DNA of 64,000 bases from Shewanella sp. Arc9-LZ (GTDB taxonomy: Bacteria > Pseudomonadota > Gammaproteobacteria > Enterobacterales > Shewanellaceae), in assembly GCF_010092445.1 (NCBI RefSeq), contig NZ_CP048031.1, positions 1,798,001 to 1,862,000 of the forward strand, read 5' to 3'. The notes below the pieces were generated by a model that saw nothing but the letters and a program-made list of their open reading frames with translations, was not told where the DNA came from and ran no database searches. Positions 1-11,465 of this stretch are shown one piece after another. Each line of letters begins with the position of its first letter. Position 1 is the stretch's first letter. A program made the position numbers and the translations under genes.

Positions 1-1867
1 CGTCAGGAGTGTTACCGGTTTTCTTACCATAAACCACGTTTGAAGTGATGGTTAAGATTGATTGTGTTGGAATGGCATTACGATACATTTTTTTAGTGCG
101 AATTTTCGCCATAAAACGTTCAACTAAATCGCAAGCAATGTCATCGACACGAGCATCATTGTTACCAAATTTTGGATAGTCACCTTGAATGTCAAAATCA
201 ACCGCAATACCATTTTCATCGCGAATAGGCTTAACTTGAGCAAACTTAATCGCTGACAATGAATCGGCAGCAATTGACAAACCTGCAATACCACACGCCA
301 TTGTACGGCGCACATCGCGGTCATGTAATGCCATTAACGCAGACTCGTAAGAGTATTTGTCATGCATAAAGTGAATCGCGTTAAGCGCAGACACATACTG
401 CGTTGCAAGCCAGTCCATTAAGCCATCAAGACGTGACATAACATCATCAAACTCAAGTACATCAGCAGTGATTGGGTCCGCTTTTGGTGCAATTTGGGTT
501 TTAAGCTTTTCGTCAACACCACCGTTAATGGCGTATAACATGGTTTTGGCTAAGTTAGCGCGAGCACCGAAGAACTGCATATGCTTACCCAAAATCATTG
601 GGCTAACACAACAAGCAATGGCGTAATCGTCTGACTCGAAGTCAGGGCGCATTAAGTCATCGTTTTCGTATTGAATTGAGCTAGTGTCAATTGATACTTT
701 GGCACAGTAACTTTTAAAACCTTGTGGCAATCTTGTAGACCATAACACGGTAATGTTTGGCTCTGGGCTTGGGCCCATGTTGTACAAGGTATGCAAGAAA
801 CGGAAGCTTGATTTAGTCACCAATGTGCGACCATCAAGACCCATACCAGCGATAGATTCAGTTGCCCAGATTGGATCGCCTGAGAATAGTTCATCGTATT
901 CAGGTGTACGCAGGAAACGCACCATACGTAGTTTCATCACGAAATGGTCAACCATTTCTTGTGCTTGCTGTTCAGTAAGAACACCATTTTTAATGTCACG
1001 TTCAATATAAGCATCAATGAACGTTGAGGTACGACCCAGTGACATTGCTGCGCCATTTTGGCTTTTTACTGCAGCAAGGTAACCAAAGTAAGTCCATTGA
1101 ATGGCTTCTTTAGCATTTTTGGCGGGTACAGAAATATCACAACCGTATTTAGCTGCCATCACTTTCATTTGGCCTAAAGCACGATGTTGCTCAGAAATCT
1201 CTTCACGTAATTGGATCACACTTGATAAGTCATCACCAGCTTCAAATTGCGCTTGCAGTGAGCTGAATTGGGCAAACTTATCTTTCATTAGGTAATCGAT
1301 ACCGTACAAAGCAATACGGCGGTAGTCACCAATAATACGACCACGACCATAGGCATCAGGTAAACCTGTTAATATACCTGATTTACGGCAAGCCATAATT
1401 TCTGGGGTATAAACATCAAACACGCCTTGGTTATGGGTTTTGCGTAACTCAGAGTAAACGTAATTCACATCGCTGTTAAGTTCACGGCCATAAGCTTTAC
1501 ATGAACCTTCAACCATACGAATACCACCGTTGGGCAGCATGGCACGTTTTAATGGCGCTTCAGTTTGTAAACCAACGATAGTTTCAAGGTCTTTATTGAT
1601 ATAGCCAGCATCATGAGAGGTAATGGTTGAAACCATTTCAGTGTCGAAATCGACTGGAGCATGAGTTTGGTTCTCTTGCTTGATGCCTTCCATTACTTTG
1701 TCCCACAAAGTTAATGTTGCATCTGTTGCACCTGCTAAGAATGATTCATCACCCTCATATGGTGTGTAATTTTGTTGGATAAAGTCACGTACGTTAACTT
1801 CAGTTTTCCAATCGCCAGCTACGAAACCTTCCCACGCGTTGGCAAATAGTTCGGTTTTATCTGTCAT
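1..1867 (-). CDS. pflB: Formate acetyltransferase (pyruvate formate-lyase), C-terminus cut by window edge
   Basis: Glycyl-radical enzyme that converts pyruvate and CoA to acetyl-CoA and formate in anaerobic cytoplasm. The reading frame runs from the window edge to an ATG at 1867 and gives 622 codons without a stop. The translation follows E. coli PflB throughout, starting [15 protein letters not shown]. The catalytic adjacent cysteines (motif IACCVSP) are Cys419-Cys420, one off the E. coli numbering. The radical glycine near the C-terminus lies outside the window, so intactness of the end cannot be judged. About 400 bp upstream is non-coding and holds an extended -10 followed by a PdhR-type operator (2067-2083), suggesting repression relieved by pyruvate. 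The next gene upstream, a DUF3360 permease, has the same promoter arrangement. Identification is secure. Confidence 0.97.
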
Positions 1868-2066: not shown

Positions 2067-2083
2067 AATTGGTAAGACCAATT
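2067..2083. promoter_or_regulatory. PdhR/LldR-type operator upstream of pflB
   Basis: AATTGGTAAGACCAATT is a perfect 7-bp inverted repeat around a 3-bp centre and matches the known GntR-family PdhR/LldR consensus (TTGGT-N3-ACCAA). It lies 12 bp downstream of an extended -10 on the minus strand, so it would cover about +4 to +20 and act as a repressor site. Assignment to PdhR rather than LldR is inference. Confidence 0.75.
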
Positions 2084-2095
2084 ATCCATGGGTTA

Positions 2096-2104
2096 ATAAT
2101 AGCA
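2096..2104 (-). promoter_or_regulatory. Extended -10 of the pflB promoter (candidate)
   Basis: Read on the minus strand the sequence is TGCTATTAT, an extended -10 (TG-N-TATTAT), placed immediately before the PdhR-type operator. There is no recognisable -35. The DUF3360 gene has the equivalent TGCTAAAAT in the same position relative to its operator, which supports both calls. Confidence 0.45.
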
Positions 2105-2213
2105 CAGCATAATGACGATATCGGCAGCTTTCGCTAACGGATTATCAAAAGTGTTAACTGGCTAACATATCTGTTTATAACTTGGAGTAGCCCGCGGCAA
2201 TTTTTGGCAAATA

Positions 2214-2243
2214 AAAAGCGAAACCATTGCCGATCTCGCTTTT
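2214..2243 (-). terminator. Terminator after the DUF3360 permease gene
   Basis: On the minus strand AAAAGCGA, a 14-nt loop and TCGCTTTT are followed by a T-rich run. The hairpin lies 30 bp past the stop codon. The stem is only 8 bp and the loop long, so strength is uncertain. Confidence 0.5.
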
Positions 2244-2273
2244 ATATTGATGGTATTACCGAACATGACTAGA

Positions 2274-3806
2274 TTATAGCAACGCTGGAATCCCTTCGAT
2301 CATGCCTACTGCTAACATCGCCGCCAAACAAATCACAAAGGCTAGGCTTGGGATAACGATACGGTCTGCAAATGACAAGGTTTTAGGACGCTCTTTATCA
2401 CCAATTAAACCATTATTATCAAGTAACATGGTTAACGCCCAAGCTAATACTGGGTTGGCAACAAATGCAGCGAAAATACAGATACCTGCGGCTTGGCTAC
2501 TCGTCGTGTCTTTAACCATCTGTAAACCTGCCTCTAATAACGGCAGGAATACGCCAACTAAAAGCGCAATCGACATAACAGGGCGCCACACCGTGATATC
2601 CATAGGATAACCAATGATAGCCACAATAATACACAAGCTACCGAGTAGGATAGCGCCAGCTGGAATAGGGCGTTTGGCAATAGCCGCTGGGATCATGTAA
2701 GTTCCCCACGACGAGGTAATATTACCGCCACCGACTGCAGTACCAACGATCTGTCTTACTGAGCAAGTTGTCATCGTGTCATCAACATCCATCAGTACTT
2801 TTTCAGCGCCTTTTGGATAATTTAATTCTTGGAAAATACGATGACCAAGAAAGTCTGGTGACCACATGGCAACAGCCAGAATTGCGAATGGTAATGATGC
2901 AATAAAATGAGCTGCATTTGGTAAGCCTAACTGCCAACCATGTTCAGTTGAACCCCACCAATAAACCGGATTGAGATTTGGGATGCCTGGAGCGGTAGTA
3001 AATTGTAAATCTAAGCCTGCGCCTAGGCCAAATGCCAGAGTAACTGCTGCAATAGAACACAATGGAATCGCTAACCAGCGTTTACCGTATTTGGCTAATG
3101 CTGCATAAATAATGACATTGATTAACAAGATGGTAAATGCAACATAACCGAGTGAATAGTCAAGACTGTGCTTGGCTTGCAGTCCTCCTGCCCAGTCAAA
3201 TAACGAACCTATCTGACTTTTAGCTCCCATAAATCCTAAGAACACCAATAAACCGCCGGCCACACCGCTACTGGTGAGGTTAACCAGTTTCGAGCCCCCT
3301 TTGAAATAACTTAAAATCAAGCCAAATATACCAATGAGGATTGCTAACGCTAATGGATGAGCACCAGCGAGCGCGATGGTACCAATTAACGGGATCATTG
3401 GTCCATGGTTGCCGCCAAGGTTTGCTCTTGGATTAATAAAACCAGAGCTAATAATACAGAAGAGTAAAGCTGGGATGAGCATTTCTACACGGACAATCTG
3501 GATAGCAAATTCTGCCCCAAGATTGACGTGATCCCATTTTTCACTTAAACCTGCAGCCCAAGCTGCCATTACTGCAGAATACATCACAGTAATACCAATA
3601 GTTCCTGCGATGGCTGGGACTAAGTCTTCCCATTCAAAACGAAAATCACGTCCAGGAAGGTTGAGTCCCCAACGTTTGGGCTTCATTATCTTGAGTTCAT
3701 TTTCTAGATAGGCATCGCGAGTGTCAAACTCGCTAGCAGGACGGTGAAGCTCGCTGTAGCTTGCTTCTTGAGCTTGTGTATCTGAATTACTGACTGTGTC
3801 TGACAT
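2274..3806 (-). CDS. DUF3360 family membrane protein, putative permease
   Basis: A 510-residue polytopic membrane protein with a soluble N-terminal tail of about 60 residues, then roughly 11-13 hydrophobic segments. I recognise it as the uncharacterised DUF3360 family of marine gammaproteobacteria. Segments such as INPRANLGGNHGPMIPLIG and VGGGNITSSWGTYMIP are polar re-entrant-like stretches of the kind seen in SulP/NCS2 anion transporters. This resemblance is an impression, not an alignment. The substrate is unknown. The gene sits beside pflB and its promoter carries a PdhR-type operator arranged exactly as at pflB, so a product or substrate of pyruvate metabolism (formate, pyruvate, lactate, acetate) is a reasonable inference. 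It is transcribed on its own, with its own terminator. Confidence 0.8.
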   Translation of the reverse strand: MSDTVSNSDTQAQEASYSELHRPASEFDTRDAYLENELKIMKPKRWGLNLPGRDFRFEWEDLVPAIAGTIGITVMYSAVMAAWAAGLSEKWDHVNLGAEFAIQIVRVEMLIPALLFCIISSGFINPRANLGGNHGPMIPLIGTIALAGAHPLALAILIGIFGLILSYFKGGSKLVNLTSSGVAGGLLVFLGFMGAKSQIGSLFDWAGGLQAKHSLDYSLGYVAFTILLINVIIYAALAKYGKRWLAIPLCSIAAVTLAFGLGAGLDLQFTTAPGIPNLNPVYWWGSTEHGWQLGLPNAAHFIASLPFAILAVAMWSPDFLGHRIFQELNYPKGAEKVLMDVDDTMTTCSVRQIVGTAVGGGNITSSWGTYMIPAAIAKRPIPAGAILLGSLCIIVAIIGYPMDITVWRPVMSIALLVGVFLPLLEAGLQMVKDTTSSQAAGICIFAAFVANPVLAWALTMLLDNNGLIGDKERPKTLSFADRIVIPSLAFVICLAAMLAVGMIEGIPALL

Positions 3807-3991
3807 AATTTCTCATTCTCCGAAAAGAACAGGTTAATCCATCAAATGATGAAGTTTGAGTGTGTTCCTTTGAAGTGATGGCTATGTCCGTAAGAGCAGC
3901 TTGCCGGTGAGCCGCAATGGCTCTTATCACTTTGCTCAGCTGCGATGCCTTTATTAGGGAAGCATTACAGTGATGTCCTTATTACGATCTT

Positions 3992-4008
3992 TTTTGGTAA
4001 GACCAATT
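3992..4008. promoter_or_regulatory. PdhR/LldR-type operator upstream of the DUF3360 permease
   Basis: The core TTGGTAAGACCAA (3994-4006) is identical to that at pflB; the left flank is TT in place of AA. It lies 10 bp downstream of an extended -10 on the minus strand. The flanking DNA also resembles the pflB promoter (AGCATAGCG here against AGCACAGCA there), suggesting a duplicated or convergent promoter. Confidence 0.7.
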
Positions 4009-4018
4009 TACCTTGTGG

Positions 4019-4027
4019 ATTTTAGCA
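4019..4027 (-). promoter_or_regulatory. Extended -10 of the DUF3360 gene promoter (candidate)
   Basis: Minus-strand TGCTAAAAT, an extended -10, positioned just before the PdhR-type operator as at pflB. No clear -35 hexamer is visible. Confidence 0.4.
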
Positions 4028-4393
4028 TAGCGTTGAGATTGCATCACTTGGTATCAAGAAAGTTGATGTTTTGTTTACTAGAAGTGAGAGCTGGATAACA
4101 AGTTAACAGCAAAATTAGATCAGTAAATTTGCCTAATAACTCACCTCGTAAGCAATACTCATTTCAGAATATTGTGTCACATCAATATAATTGATACTGG
4201 GTATAATTATTATTCAATTATATTTAAGACTTGTCTACGGGATTATTAAGAATTATAGAGAAATGACCGCTGCAGTAGCTACCATGGTGGTTACAAAATA
4301 AATTGGTCGAGTGCTGGCTGAAGGAAAGTAAGATTGGCTTTGGTGGTTGATAATGTCAGTACTTGAGAAGCATGAAATTGATAAACATGAATG

Positions 4394-4457: not shown

Positions 4458-7331
4458 TTAGAACTTATAAGAGGCTGTAGTATGGAAGAAGCGACCTACG
4501 TTGTCATAAGCTGAGCTTGTAGTATCAGTACCTGTATAACCGTATGGTAATTCACGGTTAAACACGTTATCGATACCAAACTTCAAACGAATACCTGAAT
4601 CGAAGTTGTATGCAACTGCCATGTCGTTGATAAAGTAATCGTCAAATTCCATGTTGCTATTAGGATTCGCGTTTAAGGCTAATTCCTTATCAGTATAAAG
4701 GCTTACACCCTCAACATAGCGCGTTCTCCAGCTAACATCCCAGCTATCGATTGAGTAACTTAGGCTCCAGTTTGCTTGCCATTCAGCATAGCCTGCCGTG
4801 CCTGCAAGTTCTTCAAACGTATCTGGTTCATCCTGGAATGAAAAGTCTTTACGTTTTAATAGACGAGTCGCAATAAGGTTAGTGCGTACATCACCACTAA
4901 AGGCTTCAAAGTTATAACCAATATCAAAGTCGATACCAGCAGCTTCAAGAGATGCAATGTTTAACGAGAACTGTCTAATTTGAGTAATTTCGTGGCTAGT
5001 TGAATCACGAGTAATCAAACTACAGTATTCGTTATTCACACCAGATGGAGAATCAACACAACGGTCGATAATATCTTGGGCGCCAACAGCACTGATTGCA
5101 TTTTCGATCTCGATATTCCAATAATCGGTAGTGATCGATAATCCATCAATAAAATCAGGTTGATAAACAATTCCTAACGTGAAACTTTTCGATTCTTCTG
5201 CTTTTAGCTCGCGATTACCACCACTTAATCCTTCAAGGGTTTTATCGTCGTAATCAGCGTCAAAACCAGCAGGGATCCCTAGCGCCGCACAGTTAGCCTG
5301 GCGTTGAGTTGGATCAGCTAGATCATTTAAGTTTTTAGCACGACAAGAGTCATCTACAGAGAAGAATGTTTGGCTTGCAGCACCATAAAGCTCACTGATG
5401 TTAGGTGCACGAATAGCTTCTGAGTATGTAGTACGAACGCGGATCTGATCATCAACTTCCCAGCTTAAGCCCGTTTTCCATGTTGTTGCATTACCAATGG
5501 TGCTGTAATCAGCAAAACGTATTGCAAGATCTAAGTCTAGCTGACGTACCATTGGTAAATCGGCTAGCAAAGGAAGCGTGATTTCAGCAAAAATTTCGCT
5601 TACATCAAAATCGCCTTTATCTTCGCCCAATGCATTGAAGAAAGTACCTGCTGCATTTGAAGGTTCAAATATCTCACTTTCTTCTTTACGGTATTCAACA
5701 CCAGTAGAGAAGCCTGCATAACCGGCAGGTAATTCAAATAAACTAGAGTTAGTTAGTGAGCCACCTAATACGGTTTGCTTAATAATCGATGTACCAGTTG
5801 AAGCGGTATTAATATAGTTAATAGCATCTTGACTTGGCGCGCCAAAACCAAAAATGTTGACTGGCACACAGCCTGCATCTCTAGCTGACTGATCACGACA
5901 TACTGCAATCCCGTTTTCTAATACAGAATCAAGGGCGTTGGTGTAATTGTCATAGATTAAGTTATTTTTATTAACGCGCTCTAAATCAGTTTGACCATAA
6001 ATAGCATAGGCATCGTAATCCCAATCTTGGAATACTATACCTTCAAGACCGATAACATAACGTTGAGTTTCGCGAGTATCATCTTCAATACGCGCACCCA
6101 AGTCCGTCATAAAACGACGAATATTAAGTGTATCTAATGGCGCTGAATTACCGTCGCTATCTTTGTTTGCTTTCATTAAAGCAACCAGCTCAGGATTGAT
6201 AAAAGCATTATCAATTTTGATATCGTTGACCGGGTTACCAAAGAAAAATGCCGGTTGGCCTTCATCTGTTGATTGGCTGTTAACGTATTTAGCTTCAAAA
6301 TAAACGTTATGATTATCGTTAAGCTGGTAGTTTGCTTTAAAGTTAATATTGTAACGTTCGAATTCTGGTTGTAATTCGACAAACTGGTTTAAGTTAGTGA
6401 CATCACAATTTGCACAACGAATACCATCAACATTTTGACCGCTATAAACATCGCTTAATGAGCCATCAGGATTAAAGCTTTTCCAACCATCTAAATTGAA
6501 GGTACCGGCATTACTAATCGTGTAGTGACCGGCGTTAGGAGTCCATATTTTGTCTGGATCTGATGGGTCATTGTTATCTTCAGTGCGGTTTTTATTTGCT
6601 AGGCTCGAAAAAGCAGTTGAAGTCTGATCGCGATCAAATGCTCTTAATTGCTCTTGAGCGCTGTATTCAACCGCAAAGGCAACATTACCATCACCTTGTG
6701 CAAAATCAGAACCATAAGATAATGAGAAACGGTCTTTATTGTGGCCACTATCGTCAGCCCAACCTTTGGTTGCTGATACATCTAAGCCATTAATATCTTT
6801 CTTTAAAATGAAGTTTACAACACCGGTTACCGCATCAGCACCGTAAATTGCAGATGCACCGCCGGTAATCACTTCTACTCTATCGATCCATACACTTGGA
6901 ATGGTATTGACGTCGACTGAAGAAGTACCTGCAGAACTTGATACATGGCGTTTACCGTCCACTAACACGAGTGTTCTGGCTGTACCCATGCTTCTTAAAT
7001 CGAGCAAGTTAAGACCCGAAGTACCAATAAAGCGGCCTGAGTTGGCAAGTGAGTAGGTGTTACCTAGTGCAGGTAATTGGTTTAGCGCTTCACCAATATT
7101 TGTTACACCAGTTGATAATAACTCGTCGCCAGTAATTACTGTAACCGGCGTTGGTGCAACAGCACCTTCACGAATAATACGTGAGCCTGTTACCGATATT
7201 CTTTCAACAGTTGATGCTGGATTAGCTTGATCTTCTGCTGCAAAGGTATTGAATGTGGTTGCTGCAGAAACAGCGACACCACTGATTAGCGCAAAGCGAA
7301 TAGCTTTGGCTAAATGCGAATTAACTTGCAT
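4458..7331 (-). CDS. TonB-dependent receptor, 957 residues
   Basis: Outer-membrane active transporter. The N-terminus has a signal peptide (charged start, hydrophobic core, cleavage near TFAA), then a TonB-box-like VERISVTGSRI and a plug domain at about 50-170 with the typical TVITGDELLS, VNTIPS-type and GASAIYGADAVTGVVNF segments. The rest is a large beta-barrel with many aromatic-terminated strands, ending in SYKF, with a C-terminal Phe as outer-membrane barrels require. Two short loops contain paired cysteines (RCANCD and CRDQSARDAGC). Size and plug style are those of receptors that often import oligosaccharides, peptides or complexes rather than classical siderophores, but no substrate can be named. 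No Fur box was found upstream, in contrast with the second receptor in the window. A strong terminator follows. Confidence 0.93.
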   Translation of the reverse strand: MQVNSHLAKAIRFALISGVAVSAATTFNTFAAEDQANPASTVERISVTGSRIIREGAVAPTPVTVITGDELLSTGVTNIGEALNQLPALGNTYSLANSGRFIGTSGLNLLDLRSMGTARTLVLVDGKRHVSSSAGTSSVDVNTIPSVWIDRVEVITGGASAIYGADAVTGVVNFILKKDINGLDVSATKGWADDSGHNKDRFSLSYGSDFAQGDGNVAFAVEYSAQEQLRAFDRDQTSTAFSSLANKNRTEDNNDPSDPDKIWTPNAGHYTISNAGTFNLDGWKSFNPDGSLSDVYSGQNVDGIRCANCDVTNLNQFVELQPEFERYNINFKANYQLNDNHNVYFEAKYVNSQSTDEGQPAFFFGNPVNDIKIDNAFINPELVALMKANKDSDGNSAPLDTLNIRRFMTDLGARIEDDTRETQRYVIGLEGIVFQDWDYDAYAIYGQTDLERVNKNNLIYDNYTNALDSVLENGIAVCRDQSARDAGCVPVNIFGFGAPSQDAINYINTASTGTSIIKQTVLGGSLTNSSLFELPAGYAGFSTGVEYRKEESEIFEPSNAAGTFFNALGEDKGDFDVSEIFAEITLPLLADLPMVRQLDLDLAIRFADYSTIGNATTWKTGLSWEVDDQIRVRTTYSEAIRAPNISELYGAASQTFFSVDDSCRAKNLNDLADPTQRQANCAALGIPAGFDADYDDKTLEGLSGGNRELKAEESKSFTLGIVYQPDFIDGLSITTDYWNIEIENAISAVGAQDIIDRCVDSPSGVNNEYCSLITRDSTSHEITQIRQFSLNIASLEAAGIDFDIGYNFEAFSGDVRTNLIATRLLKRKDFSFQDEPDTFEELAGTAGYAEWQANWSLSYSIDSWDVSWRTRYVEGVSLYTDKELALNANPNSNMEFDDYFINDMAVAYNFDSGIRLKFGIDNVFNRELPYGYTGTDTTSSAYDNVGRFFHTTASYKF

Positions 7332-8600: not shown

Positions 8601-8828
8601 ATCGGTATCATTCTATTTTTTCAGATGTTGGTATTACGAATTGTGAATCAATATTATTGATTGTTGCCATCATTATTATCAAATTTTATTCTGATTATTT
8701 CAAAGGTAGTCTTATGTTTCGACAAGAAGGCCGCCATGAATAGTAGAGTGATAATACATGTCTCACTGTTCCTACAATATTTATGCTGCAGCCAAAGAAT
8801 AACCATTAGTTTATTTGGAATGTAGTTT

Positions 8829-10505
8829 ATGACTGCTTTAACAACAAAAACTTCAACAGTGCCGATACAGAGTGCTTACACACAAGACGCTGCGAATAGT
8901 GCAGTTATCAACATGTGCCAGCAAGCTGAACAATACGGGCAATCTAAAGTCATTAAGTCGCACCTTGAGTCATTCGGTTTAGCTATTTTTGCCGGTGCTT
9001 TTATTGCGTTGGCTTTTGTTTTTTATATTACGGTAACGACCGGAACAATTGGTCCTTGGGGGCAAGTGCGCTTTATTGGCGGTTTAGCGTTTAGCTTAGG
9101 GTTAATTTTAGTGGTTATTTGTGGGGGGGAACTTTTTACCAGCACAGTCTTAAGCAGTGTTGCATGGGCTCAAAAACGGGTTACTACTAGAGATTTATTG
9201 ATGTGTTGGACTCGGGTCTATGTTGGCAATTTCATTGGCGCTATGTTGATGTTGTTGTTGATTTTAGGGGCTAAAATGCACCTGCTCAATGATGGTCAAT
9301 GGGGCTTGAATGCATTAAATATTGCGCAACACAAAATACATCATGATTGGAGCCAAGCATTTATTTTGGGCATATTATGTAATGTTTTGGTGTGCCTAGG
9401 TGTCTGGATGACGTTTTCCAGTAAAGACGTACTAACCAAAGCCTTCTTACTGATGCTACCCGTTGCCATGTTTGTCAGCAGTGGTTTTGAACACAGTATC
9501 GCTAACTTGTTTATGGTGCCGCTGGGGATCATGTTGCAACAATTTGCATCGGCGGATTTCTTTAACGCTATTGGTGTACCCGCAAGCCAGTTTGCTGATA
9601 TCACAATAATGCATTTTCTGTTTAATAATCTTATTCCTGTCACGTTAGGCAACATCGTCGGCGGTGCGTTATTTGTCGGTCTTGCTTATTTAATGATCGA
9701 ACGATTAAAGCACTCTAATGCTAATCATACAGCGCCTATGGCGTTAGCCACGTTGGCATTAGCTGAATGTATTCCGGCGATTGACGCGCATATGTCAAAC
9801 CAGGCTATTTCAAATCAGGCTATGTCAAATAAGTCAGCTTCTAACCAGCCTAATTCAGATAAGCCAATACCTAACGTACCAATATCAAGTCGACCAATGG
9901 TCAGTCAATCGACCACAGATTTTTCCAAATCACATTCAGTATTAACCCAAATTCACCATGAATCTAACCTTACACCTTCGCTAAAAACGAATGGGAGAAC
10001 TGCTATGCCTAAATCAATTATTAATCTTACTGTCAGTGAATTAATGCAAGCGACACCTTTTACATTATCACCAGAACTCTCTATTCATGAAGGACTGATG
10101 CAACTCACTGCTGCGCAAGAACGAGGAGCACCAGTTGTTGACAAACAAAATCGCTTATTAGGATTTGTATCTCAACAAGATTTATTAAGATGCTTATGGT
10201 CAGAAGAATATAACAAACACATTAACAGTCATGTTGCTGATTTAATGCAGACGCAAGTGATGACCGTATCTGGCAACGATAAAATTGCCGATCTTGTTGA
10301 GTTAATGGTTGTCGACAGAGAGAAGTTGTTTCCTGTTACCGCTAGCGGAATGTATACCGGTAGCCGCTTTATGAGTTATGAAGAACGTTTAAGACATGCT
10401 TCTGCGAATAAACCGAGTAGTTTTCCTGTTGTAAATGAGGGAATATTGCTTGGAGTTATTACTCGAGAACAGATAGCTACTAAAATTTGTTCGGTGATGG
10501 GATAG
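8829..10505 (+). CDS. FocA-type formate/nitrite channel fused to a C-terminal CBS-domain pair
   Basis: 558 residues in three parts. Residues 30-292 are a complete formate/nitrite transporter (FNT) unit close to E. coli FocA: GGELFTS around 99-105 and the conserved channel histidine at 222 in SGFEHSIAN. Residues 322-362 are a low-complexity linker of about eight 5-residue units (MSNQA, ISNQA, MSNKS, ASNQP...). Residues 400-558 form two CBS modules; the second carries an insertion of about 25 residues (505-530). E. coli FocA is 285 residues and lacks this tail. CBS pairs usually bind adenine nucleotides, so the inference is a formate channel gated by energy state. The start ATG is in context TAGTTTATG with no strong ribosome site. 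It stands alone, divergent from the receptor gene. Confidence 0.9.
   Translation: MTALTTKTSTVPIQSAYTQDAANSAVINMCQQAEQYGQSKVIKSHLESFGLAIFAGAFIALAFVFYITVTTGTIGPWGQVRFIGGLAFSLGLILVVICGGELFTSTVLSSVAWAQKRVTTRDLLMCWTRVYVGNFIGAMLMLLLILGAKMHLLNDGQWGLNALNIAQHKIHHDWSQAFILGILCNVLVCLGVWMTFSSKDVLTKAFLLMLPVAMFVSSGFEHSIANLFMVPLGIMLQQFASADFFNAIGVPASQFADITIMHFLFNNLIPVTLGNIVGGALFVGLAYLMIERLKHSNANHTAPMALATLALAECIPAIDAHMSNQAISNQAMSNKSASNQPNSDKPIPNVPISSRPMVSQSTTDFSKSHSVLTQIHHESNLTPSLKTNGRTAMPKSIINLTVSELMQATPFTLSPELSIHEGLMQLTAAQERGAPVVDKQNRLLGFVSQQDLLRCLWSEEYNKHINSHVADLMQTQVMTVSGNDKIADLVELMVVDREKLFPVTASGMYTGSRFMSYEERLRHASANKPSSFPVVNEGILLGVITREQIATKICSVMG
9792..9896 (+). repeat. 15-bp in-frame minisatellite encoding the FocA-CBS linker
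   Basis: Units such as ATGTCAAACCAGGCT, ATTTCAAATCAGGCT and ATGTCAAATAAGTCA continue with increasing divergence for seven copies, encoding the 5-residue repeat x-S-N-Q/K-x. The period equals that of intergenic repeats elsewhere in the window. Confidence 0.75.
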
Positions 10506-10571: not shown

Positions 10572-11465
10572 TTAAAGCGTTTTACTCATGCGTCTTGCTT
10601 CATTTAGGACGCAATCACGAAGCGGATTATCACCCGCATCATTGCGCCATACAAAAGACAATTGACGCTGTAGGTTAAGCTGTGGTGTATCAATAATAAC
10701 CAGCTTACCTTCAGCAACATCTTGCTCTACGGTAATATGGGGCAGGCAGCTTAAGTAAGACCCATTTCTGACCAATGCCTTTAACAGCAGTACATGTTCG
10801 TATTCTTTCCACACATTGAGTTTTTCAAGCACACCGTGGATAGCTCCTTCAAAAATGCGTCTGGTACCAGCACCTTGCTCTCTAAGCACCCATTTTGCTT
10901 GTTCCAATTGCGCTAAACTAATTTTTTCAGCATTGGCATAAGGGTGGTGCGGCGCGGCAACTACCACAAGATGATCATCAATCCACTTTTCTTGATGTAA
11001 GCGGCTATCGTCGTTACGCCCCTCAATAATACCAAGGTCATAGTCGTAGTTAATTAATCCTTCAACAACGTGTTCGGTGTTTTCAACCTCAAGATCAATC
11101 CTTAATTCTGGAAAATCATTATCAATTTTGCTGATTAAGTTTGGCAATAAATATTCTGCTGCAGTTTGGCTCGAACATAACTTAAATTGACCACTAATTA
11201 TGTGTTGTTCGTGTAAGCCAAATTGAATTTGTTGTGCATCTTGAAGTAATTGGCGTGCTTTGGGCCTTAACCAATTGCCCCAATGGCTTAGGGTTAGTCG
11301 GTTGCCTTGTCTAATAAACAGCGGACGGTCTAGTAAATTCTCTAGCTGAGAAAGTGACATACTCACAGCTGATTGGGTCATCGATAGCTTTCTGGCAGCT
11401 GCGCTAACACTTTCAAGACTGGCCACAGCATCAAAAACGGTAATTTGTTTAAGCGAGTATTTCAT
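10572..11465 (-). CDS. LysR family transcriptional regulator
   Basis: 297 residues, the normal LysR length. Residues 1-60 form the winged helix-turn-helix (SVSAAARKLSMTQSAVSMSLSQLE), followed by the linker helix and a periplasmic-binding-protein-like effector domain from about 90 (SSQTAAEYLLPNLISKI...). The effector domain resembles the YeiE/CysB-like branch, but I cannot name an ortholog. It is followed by cysK upstream in the same orientation, with a terminator between them, so it is probably a separate unit. A link to sulfur metabolism is only suggested by position. The promoter region is AT-rich. Confidence 0.9.
   Translation of the reverse strand: MKYSLKQITVFDAVASLESVSAAARKLSMTQSAVSMSLSQLENLLDRPLFIRQGNRLTLSHWGNWLRPKARQLLQDAQQIQFGLHEQHIISGQFKLCSSQTAAEYLLPNLISKIDNDFPELRIDLEVENTEHVVEGLINYDYDLGIIEGRNDDSRLHQEKWIDDHLVVVAAPHHPYANAEKISLAQLEQAKWVLREQGAGTRRIFEGAIHGVLEKLNVWKEYEHVLLLKALVRNGSYLSCLPHITVEQDVAEGKLVIIDTPQLNLQRQLSFVWRNDAGDNPLRDCVLNEARRMSKTL

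Follow-up and report, generated by a model that had tools for sequence, protein, structure and literature searches.

Matching PdhR-Type Operators before pflB and a DUF3360 Permease Gene in Shewanella Point to a Candidate Transporter of Formate or Pyruvate

The stretch of the Shewanella sp. Arc9-LZ genome analyzed here (contig NZ_CP048031.1, positions 1,798,001 to 1,862,000; 64,000 nucleotides, referred to as the window) opens on pflB, encoding pyruvate formate-lyase, which is preceded on the same strand by a gene for a DUF3360 permease. The 3′ end of pflB lies beyond the window and pflA follows on the same strand; both genes are whole in locus L018. Among named relatives, S. frigidimarina KCTC 23109 (L226) is the nearest. 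The features of the two promoters and genes, in window coordinates, are as follows.

1..1867, minus strand: pflB, pyruvate formate-lyase (TIGR01255 equivalog, 1080.5 bits against a cut-off of 994.2; also PF02901)
2067..2083, no strand assigned: putative PdhR box of pflB, the perfect 17-mer AATTGGTAAGACCAATT, matching the published Escherichia coli box AATTGGTnnnACCAATT exactly
2096..2104 (read 2104-2096), minus strand: candidate extended -10 of pflB, TGCTATTAT, from reading the sequence; TATGnTAATAT is the majority consensus here across 61 box-aligned loci
2152..2167, no strand assigned: CRP-like palindrome upstream of pflB, TGTTAGCCAGTTAACA, two mismatches to TGTGAN6TCACA
2274..3806, minus strand: DUF3360 permease, 510 amino acids (PF11840, 1014.9 bits against a gathering score of 26.2)
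3992..4008, no strand assigned: putative PdhR box of DUF3360, the 17-mer TTTTGGTAAGACCAATT, with two outer mismatches to AATTGGTnnnACCAATT
4019..4027 (read 4027-4019), minus strand: candidate extended -10 of DUF3360, TGCTAAAAT, from reading the sequence; TGTTAAnAT is the majority consensus here across 60 distinct box-aligned loci
4085..4100, no strand assigned: CRP-like palindrome upstream of DUF3360, TGTTATCCAGCTCTCA, two mismatches to TGTGAN6TCACA

The E. coli box is the 17-bp palindrome given in Table 1 of PMC7660256. An earlier sequence-only reading of this DNA had noted the 13-mer TTGGTAAGACCAA twice, each time just past a minus-strand extended -10 and roughly 200 bp ahead of a start codon. 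Both copies are exact (2069-2081 and 3994-4006); the extended -10 and the 17-mer are separated by 12 bases at pflB and 10 at DUF3360, and the near ends of the 13-mers are 202 and 188 bases from the start codons at 1867 and 3806, respectively. The gene identities given in that reading agree with the family models listed above. The spacing of the extended -10 to the box is fixed in the majority profile of same-genus loci; a -35/-10 scan of the window listed no promoter at either extended -10 site. Between the two genes a terminator scan gave no entry, and DUF3360 transcripts may therefore read through into pflB.

The motif alone is weak evidence, at or near genome background: TTGGTNNNACCAA has 24 copies in the 4.91-Mb genome versus 19 for a reversed control, and when up to two mismatches are allowed the 17-mer has 64 sites versus 95 for its control. 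What raises the two sites above chance is their AAG centre together with their conservation. Only four of the 24 genome sites carry this centre, each of them upstream of a pyruvate gene: pdhR (36 bp away), oadA (at about 0.5 kb, where a short gene could intervene), pflB, and DUF3360; the identities of PdhR, OadA, and PflA come from family-model matches. The genome has three exact copies of the 17-mer: one precedes pdhR, one precedes pflB, and one, probably by chance, is next to a reading frame resembling, by eye, an ammonium transporter.

Conservation was followed in 129 genomes of the genus, 127 of which have a pflB match. In 61 of the 127, a same-strand DUF3360 gene (59 intact, two broken) precedes pflB by 416-956 bp; focA occupies that place in 13, and no genome has both there. 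A divergent short FNT gene is found in 46 genomes, and seven have no FNT gene listed near pflB. The palindrome TTGGT-N3-ACCAA, which the sequence-only reading had proposed to seek upstream of DUF3360 in other Shewanella, is present in its strict form at -140 to -228 from the DUF3360 start in all 61 DUF3360-pflB loci, broken genes included. At pflB in these loci TGGTNNNACCA is found in 61/61, 51 in the strict form. Across the genus a TGGTNNNACCA box lies within 900 bp of pflB in 114/127 genomes; the remaining 13 are the focA-pflB operons, in which a strict box is located within 600 bp of focA in 11, a relaxed one in G073, and none in G055. The two broken DUF3360 genes (L140 in G067 and L180 in G122), with stops or frameshifts, have kept the boxes before both DUF3360 and pflB. 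Locus L143 (G070) has no DUF3360, a long FNT gene, and a second box at -885 from pflB that may be the remnant of a DUF3360 promoter now lost.

Judged by sequence, the box follows DUF3360 even away from pflB. Two Parashewanella loci (L240 and L244) and Shewanella sp. OPT22 (L242) have a perfect 17-bp box at -77 to -125 of DUF3360, with no pflB in the fetched stretch. Four Ferrimonas loci (L250, L251, L253, and L262), in which a symporter-like gene (by eye) and an altered gene order part pflB from DUF3360, have relaxed boxes at both promoters, and F. balearica (L303) has a strict box at -345 of DUF3360; the same-family locus L210 has no box before DUF3360. Other DUF3360 types (20 loci, five of them same-genus) have not even a relaxed box in the 700 bp examined.

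The genome encodes a PdhR (NF007001, 413.7 bits against a cut-off of 330) with the exact 17-mer just upstream of its gene, like the pflB box, and PdhR is encoded in all 129 same-genus genomes examined. Because of the conservation, the identical box before pdhR, and the presence of PdhR in every genome examined, PdhR control of both pflB and DUF3360 in Shewanella is strongly supported at the level of sequence. The earlier proposal of one PdhR control for the two genes is partly supported, in Shewanella (61/61 loci) though not in Vibrio, and with two separate promoters bearing similar operators rather than one promoter.

Upstream of each box a second element recurs. A CRP-like site with at most two mismatches is found before DUF3360 in 59/61 loci (versus 19/61 shuffled) and before pflB in 27/61 (versus 7/61); controls for these and for the FNR-like sites below were one plain shuffle per sequence. 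The CRP-like centres near -80 and -70 from the inferred start sites would fit class I activation.

The formate channel FocA shows a reciprocal pattern. FocA was located in 46/61 DUF3360 loci and 60/66 others (one, G094, a fragment), and its boxes were counted within the fetched locus and 600 bp, leaving out the box nearest pflB or DUF3360. In loci lacking a pflB-linked DUF3360, FocA has its own strict box in 48/60 (36/46 divergent and 12/14 same-strand genes, the G094 fragment included) and a strict or relaxed box in 54/60; with the main DUF3360 type the counts are 0/42 strict and 2/42 relaxed, and in the 870-bit DUF3360 group with a short FocA they are 0/4 beyond the box of DUF3360 itself. 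A same-strand focA before pflB is found in 0/61 DUF3360-pflB loci. A long FNT gene is present in 54/61 genomes with a pflB-linked DUF3360 versus 1/66 without. Among the reading frames scanned for domains (27 from DUF3360 loci and 60 from others), CBS domains occur in 23/27 FocA proteins of DUF3360 loci (the four short ones lack them) versus 1/60 of the others, all 60 of which match FocA models. These domains might let FocA sense nucleotides. On the pflB tree DUF3360 changes 18 times; in ten supported independent pairs it agrees with FNT length in 7.7 and disagrees in 0 (median p 0.008), and FocA box and DUF3360 are opposite in 8.2 of 9 pairs and the same in 0 (median p 0.008, range 0.004-0.125). 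The two patterns, a FocA with its own box and no CBS domain on one side and a DUF3360 with its own box on the other, are reciprocal and suggest that regulation was handed over between transporters that are unrelated. The reading that DUF3360 simply replaces FocA was rejected: the long FNT gene is kept in those 54 genomes, and it is the operator that is gone.

The window contains the FocA gene of this locus, divergent from DUF3360, with the CBS region C-terminal:

8829..10505, plus strand: FocA-type formate channel fused to a CBS-domain region, 558 amino acids (TIGR04060, 395.1 bits against a cut-off of 290.1; PF01226 and PF00571)

The 430 bp upstream of this gene contain no strict PdhR box and only a one-mismatch site at -200 (8628-8640), which is absent from S. 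frigidimarina L226 and probably due to chance. A TonB-dependent receptor gene (4458-7331) lies between DUF3360 and focA-CBS; pflB and focA are about 7 kb apart in this genome and in G031, versus about 3 kb in the remaining 42 genomes that have a long FNT gene near pflB. Convergent to focA-CBS is a gene for a LysR regulator (10575-11465; 5576-6466 in L024) that is YeiE-like at 222 bits, below the cut-off of 480, and that could be the predicted PflR considered below.

The gene pair extends beyond Shewanellaceae, to many marine bacteria: DUF3360 before pflB is kept in Vibrio, Photobacterium, Agarivorans, and relatives. Of 48 loci (L258-L305), six with pflB absent or on the other strand were dropped; in the 42 Vibrio-type loci retained, an FNR-like site, often GTGATCnAnATCAA, precedes DUF3360 in 40 (versus 4/42 shuffled). 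In a sample of 394 genomes of the order, 79 have a DUF3360 match of at least 900 bits, and 78 of these also have pflB, the exception being a genome 60% complete; pflB is found in 7/25 genomes with only other DUF3360 types and in 188/290 without DUF3360. In a tree of 53 rows, a fully supported branch separates all 31 pflB-near rows, together with three others, from the rest. The family is narrow, occurring in 4/369 genomes of a class sample, Arc9-LZ included. In two of the loci from the alphaproteobacterium Pseudovibrio (L255 and L261, 9.6-14.7 kb) a P-type-ATPase-like gene, by eye, follows DUF3360, and a second radical-enzyme pair nearby is YjjI/YjjW-like, as named from protein starts rather than a family search. 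The neighbours of other DUF3360 types provide no common substrate clue; in L186-L190 such a gene is divergent from one for a protein of about 850 amino acids (5/5 loci), whose N-terminal half appears by eye cache sensor-like and whose C-terminal part appears DUF294 nucleotidyltransferase-like.

The DUF3360 protein is predicted to be a transporter of the NAT/SLC26 fold with a 7+7-helix inverted repeat; structural alignments with UraA, SLC26Dg, and SLC26A3/A6 have 8-16% identity. A PDB sequence search (phmmer only) returned no matches up to E 10, and no Pfam model besides PF11840 matched at E 0.001; PF01226 is among those not matched at this threshold, which rules out an FNT protein. Pfam and NCBIfam assign no function to DUF3360, and among the papers searched there is none naming DUF3360 or PF11840, none on a Vibrio pyruvate transporter with pflB, and none on a CBS-domain formate transporter with FocA.

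From the sequences, their conservation, the synteny, and the predicted fold, we infer PdhR binding and its direction of control, the start sites, CRP action, transport, and substrate. In each promoter the extended -10 would be followed by a PdhR operator that overlaps the start site or lies just beyond it, with a CRP-like site some 70-80 bp upstream of that start. At low pyruvate, PdhR would occupy both operators and block transcription; as pyruvate rises it would be released, and pyruvate formate-lyase and the DUF3360 protein would be made together, the latter carrying a small monocarboxylate of the pyruvate formate-lyase branch. We consider it probable that matching PdhR-controlled promoters produce the two proteins jointly and that DUF3360 moves such a compound, most likely formate, with pyruvate second. 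A role as small-carboxylate transporter would agree with the predicted fold, the synteny, and the FocA pattern. In favour of formate are the FocA pattern and the pairing with pflB in two lineages that differ in their regulator-like sites; in favour of pyruvate are the pyruvate sensor and the loci that have both FocA and DUF3360.

Several points weigh against this proposal. The PdhR operator is not found in Vibrio-type loci, where the sequence-only reading had also suggested looking for the palindrome: with one mismatch allowed in 500 bp, a box precedes DUF3360 in 0/42 loci and pflB in 1/42, which rules out extending the operator to Vibrio even though DUF3360 and pflB remain paired there; at L259 a single relaxed site immediately precedes pflB. 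Of the 61 DUF3360 genomes, 60 retain an FNT gene, and FocA and DUF3360 share a pfl cluster at three other-family loci (L211, L215, and L224), so that DUF3360 is not simply a second FocA. The counts are drawn from related genomes, and the gene used for the pflB tree lies in the same cluster, so that block transfer could inflate the pair counts. The CRP-like sites, two mismatches off consensus, could bind another regulator, and their binder is uncertain. Transporters with this fold carry nucleobases, sulfate, bicarbonate, or other ions, so that the fold names no substrate.

It is possible, if less probable than joint function with formate first, that DUF3360 is an importer of pyruvate (or lactate) induced by its own substrate, as LldP is under PdhR in E. 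coli, with pflB as the main anaerobic pyruvate user. E. coli lldPRD mRNA rises 3.3-fold in a pdhR mutant, according to part of PMC7660256, and Shewanellaceae PdhR is said to control lldP-dld in part of PMC5343134; FocA beside DUF3360 at L211, L215, and L224 also speaks for differing substrates. The FocA pattern, however, points to formate, and the link to pflB holds across several families. In an unlikely reading, DUF3360 has no functional tie to pflB: it would transport a different small ion or nutrient, and the shared operator would reflect a general pyruvate response. PdhR does control tricarboxylic acid cycle genes in Shewanella (part of PMC5343134), four loci (L206, L210, L248, and L249) have DUF3360 without pflB in the fetched stretch, and other DUF3360 types are mostly in genomes lacking pflB (18/25); against it are the 78/79 co-occurrence and the persistence of the pairing in Vibrio with a different regulator-like site. 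We regard as rather improbable a further reading, in which DUF3360 exchanges the precursor of pyruvate formate-lyase for its product: with its SLC26 anion-exchange fold, it would bring pyruvate in and send formate out toward periplasmic formate dehydrogenase, having taken the place of FocA under the pyruvate sensor in about half of the genus while FocA lost its operator and gained CBS domains.

It is doubtful that another regulator of the GntR family (LldR or GlcC), or the predicted PflR, reads the box before DUF3360 in place of PdhR. The PdhR of this genome scores 197.5 bits against the LldR model and 134.9 against the GlcC model; the related GntR regulators PdhR, LldR, and GlcC may share sites. 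Against this, the identical 17-mer precedes pdhR itself, and E. coli-type LldR is ruled out as the reader, none of nine weak NF007741 matches in the genome being over the cut-off. A separate PflR regulon for formate metabolism is predicted in 10 of 16 Shewanella, among them S. frigidimarina, and PflR is missing in the other six species listed in part of PMC3223726, versus the DUF3360 box in 61/61 loci. Chance or recent local duplication, although the bare motif is near background, has a negligible probability and is already contradicted by the 61/61 conservation, the invariant core, 0 strict sites (and three relaxed) in 313,684 background bases of same-genus DUF3360-pflB loci, and a spacer that varies at the DUF3360 boxes (CTT 37, CAG 11, CTG 7, ATG 5, and AAG 1).

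DUF3360 thereby becomes a candidate, open to direct test, for the transport of formate or pyruvate in Shewanella and Vibrio, in which formate flux feeds anaerobic energy metabolism. It is the combination that looks new: a DUF3360 gene that is a putative PdhR target and retains its box where it is not beside pflB, an FNR-like site in the Vibrio-type loci, reciprocal behaviour of FocA, and the predicted fold; the DUF3360 operator, perhaps under a locus tag, may already be recorded in supplements or RegPrecise.

Among known systems, the PdhR regulon of Shewanellaceae shares its operator type and regulator with the pflB and DUF3360 sites. Its targets include pflBA, focA, oadGAB, and lldP-dld (PMC5343134, 2016), and a regulon collection with the separate PflR was described earlier (PMC3223726, 2011); DUF3360 is not named among the targets in the portions of these two sources consulted. 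LldP, YhjX, BtsT, and CstA are carboxylate transporters tied to pyruvate signalling (parts of PMC7730263 and PMC7660256), as is proposed for DUF3360, which differs in matching no Pfam model other than its own. From the NAT/SLC23 and SLC26 transporters DUF3360 is set apart by conserved motifs of its own, GNHGP and GGGN among them. The closest parallel in arrangement is the FocA-PflB system, in which a membrane protein is likewise encoded next upstream of pflB, on the same strand and with the same box in Shewanella; unlike FocA, DUF3360 matches no FNT model and has a predicted NAT/SLC26 fold.
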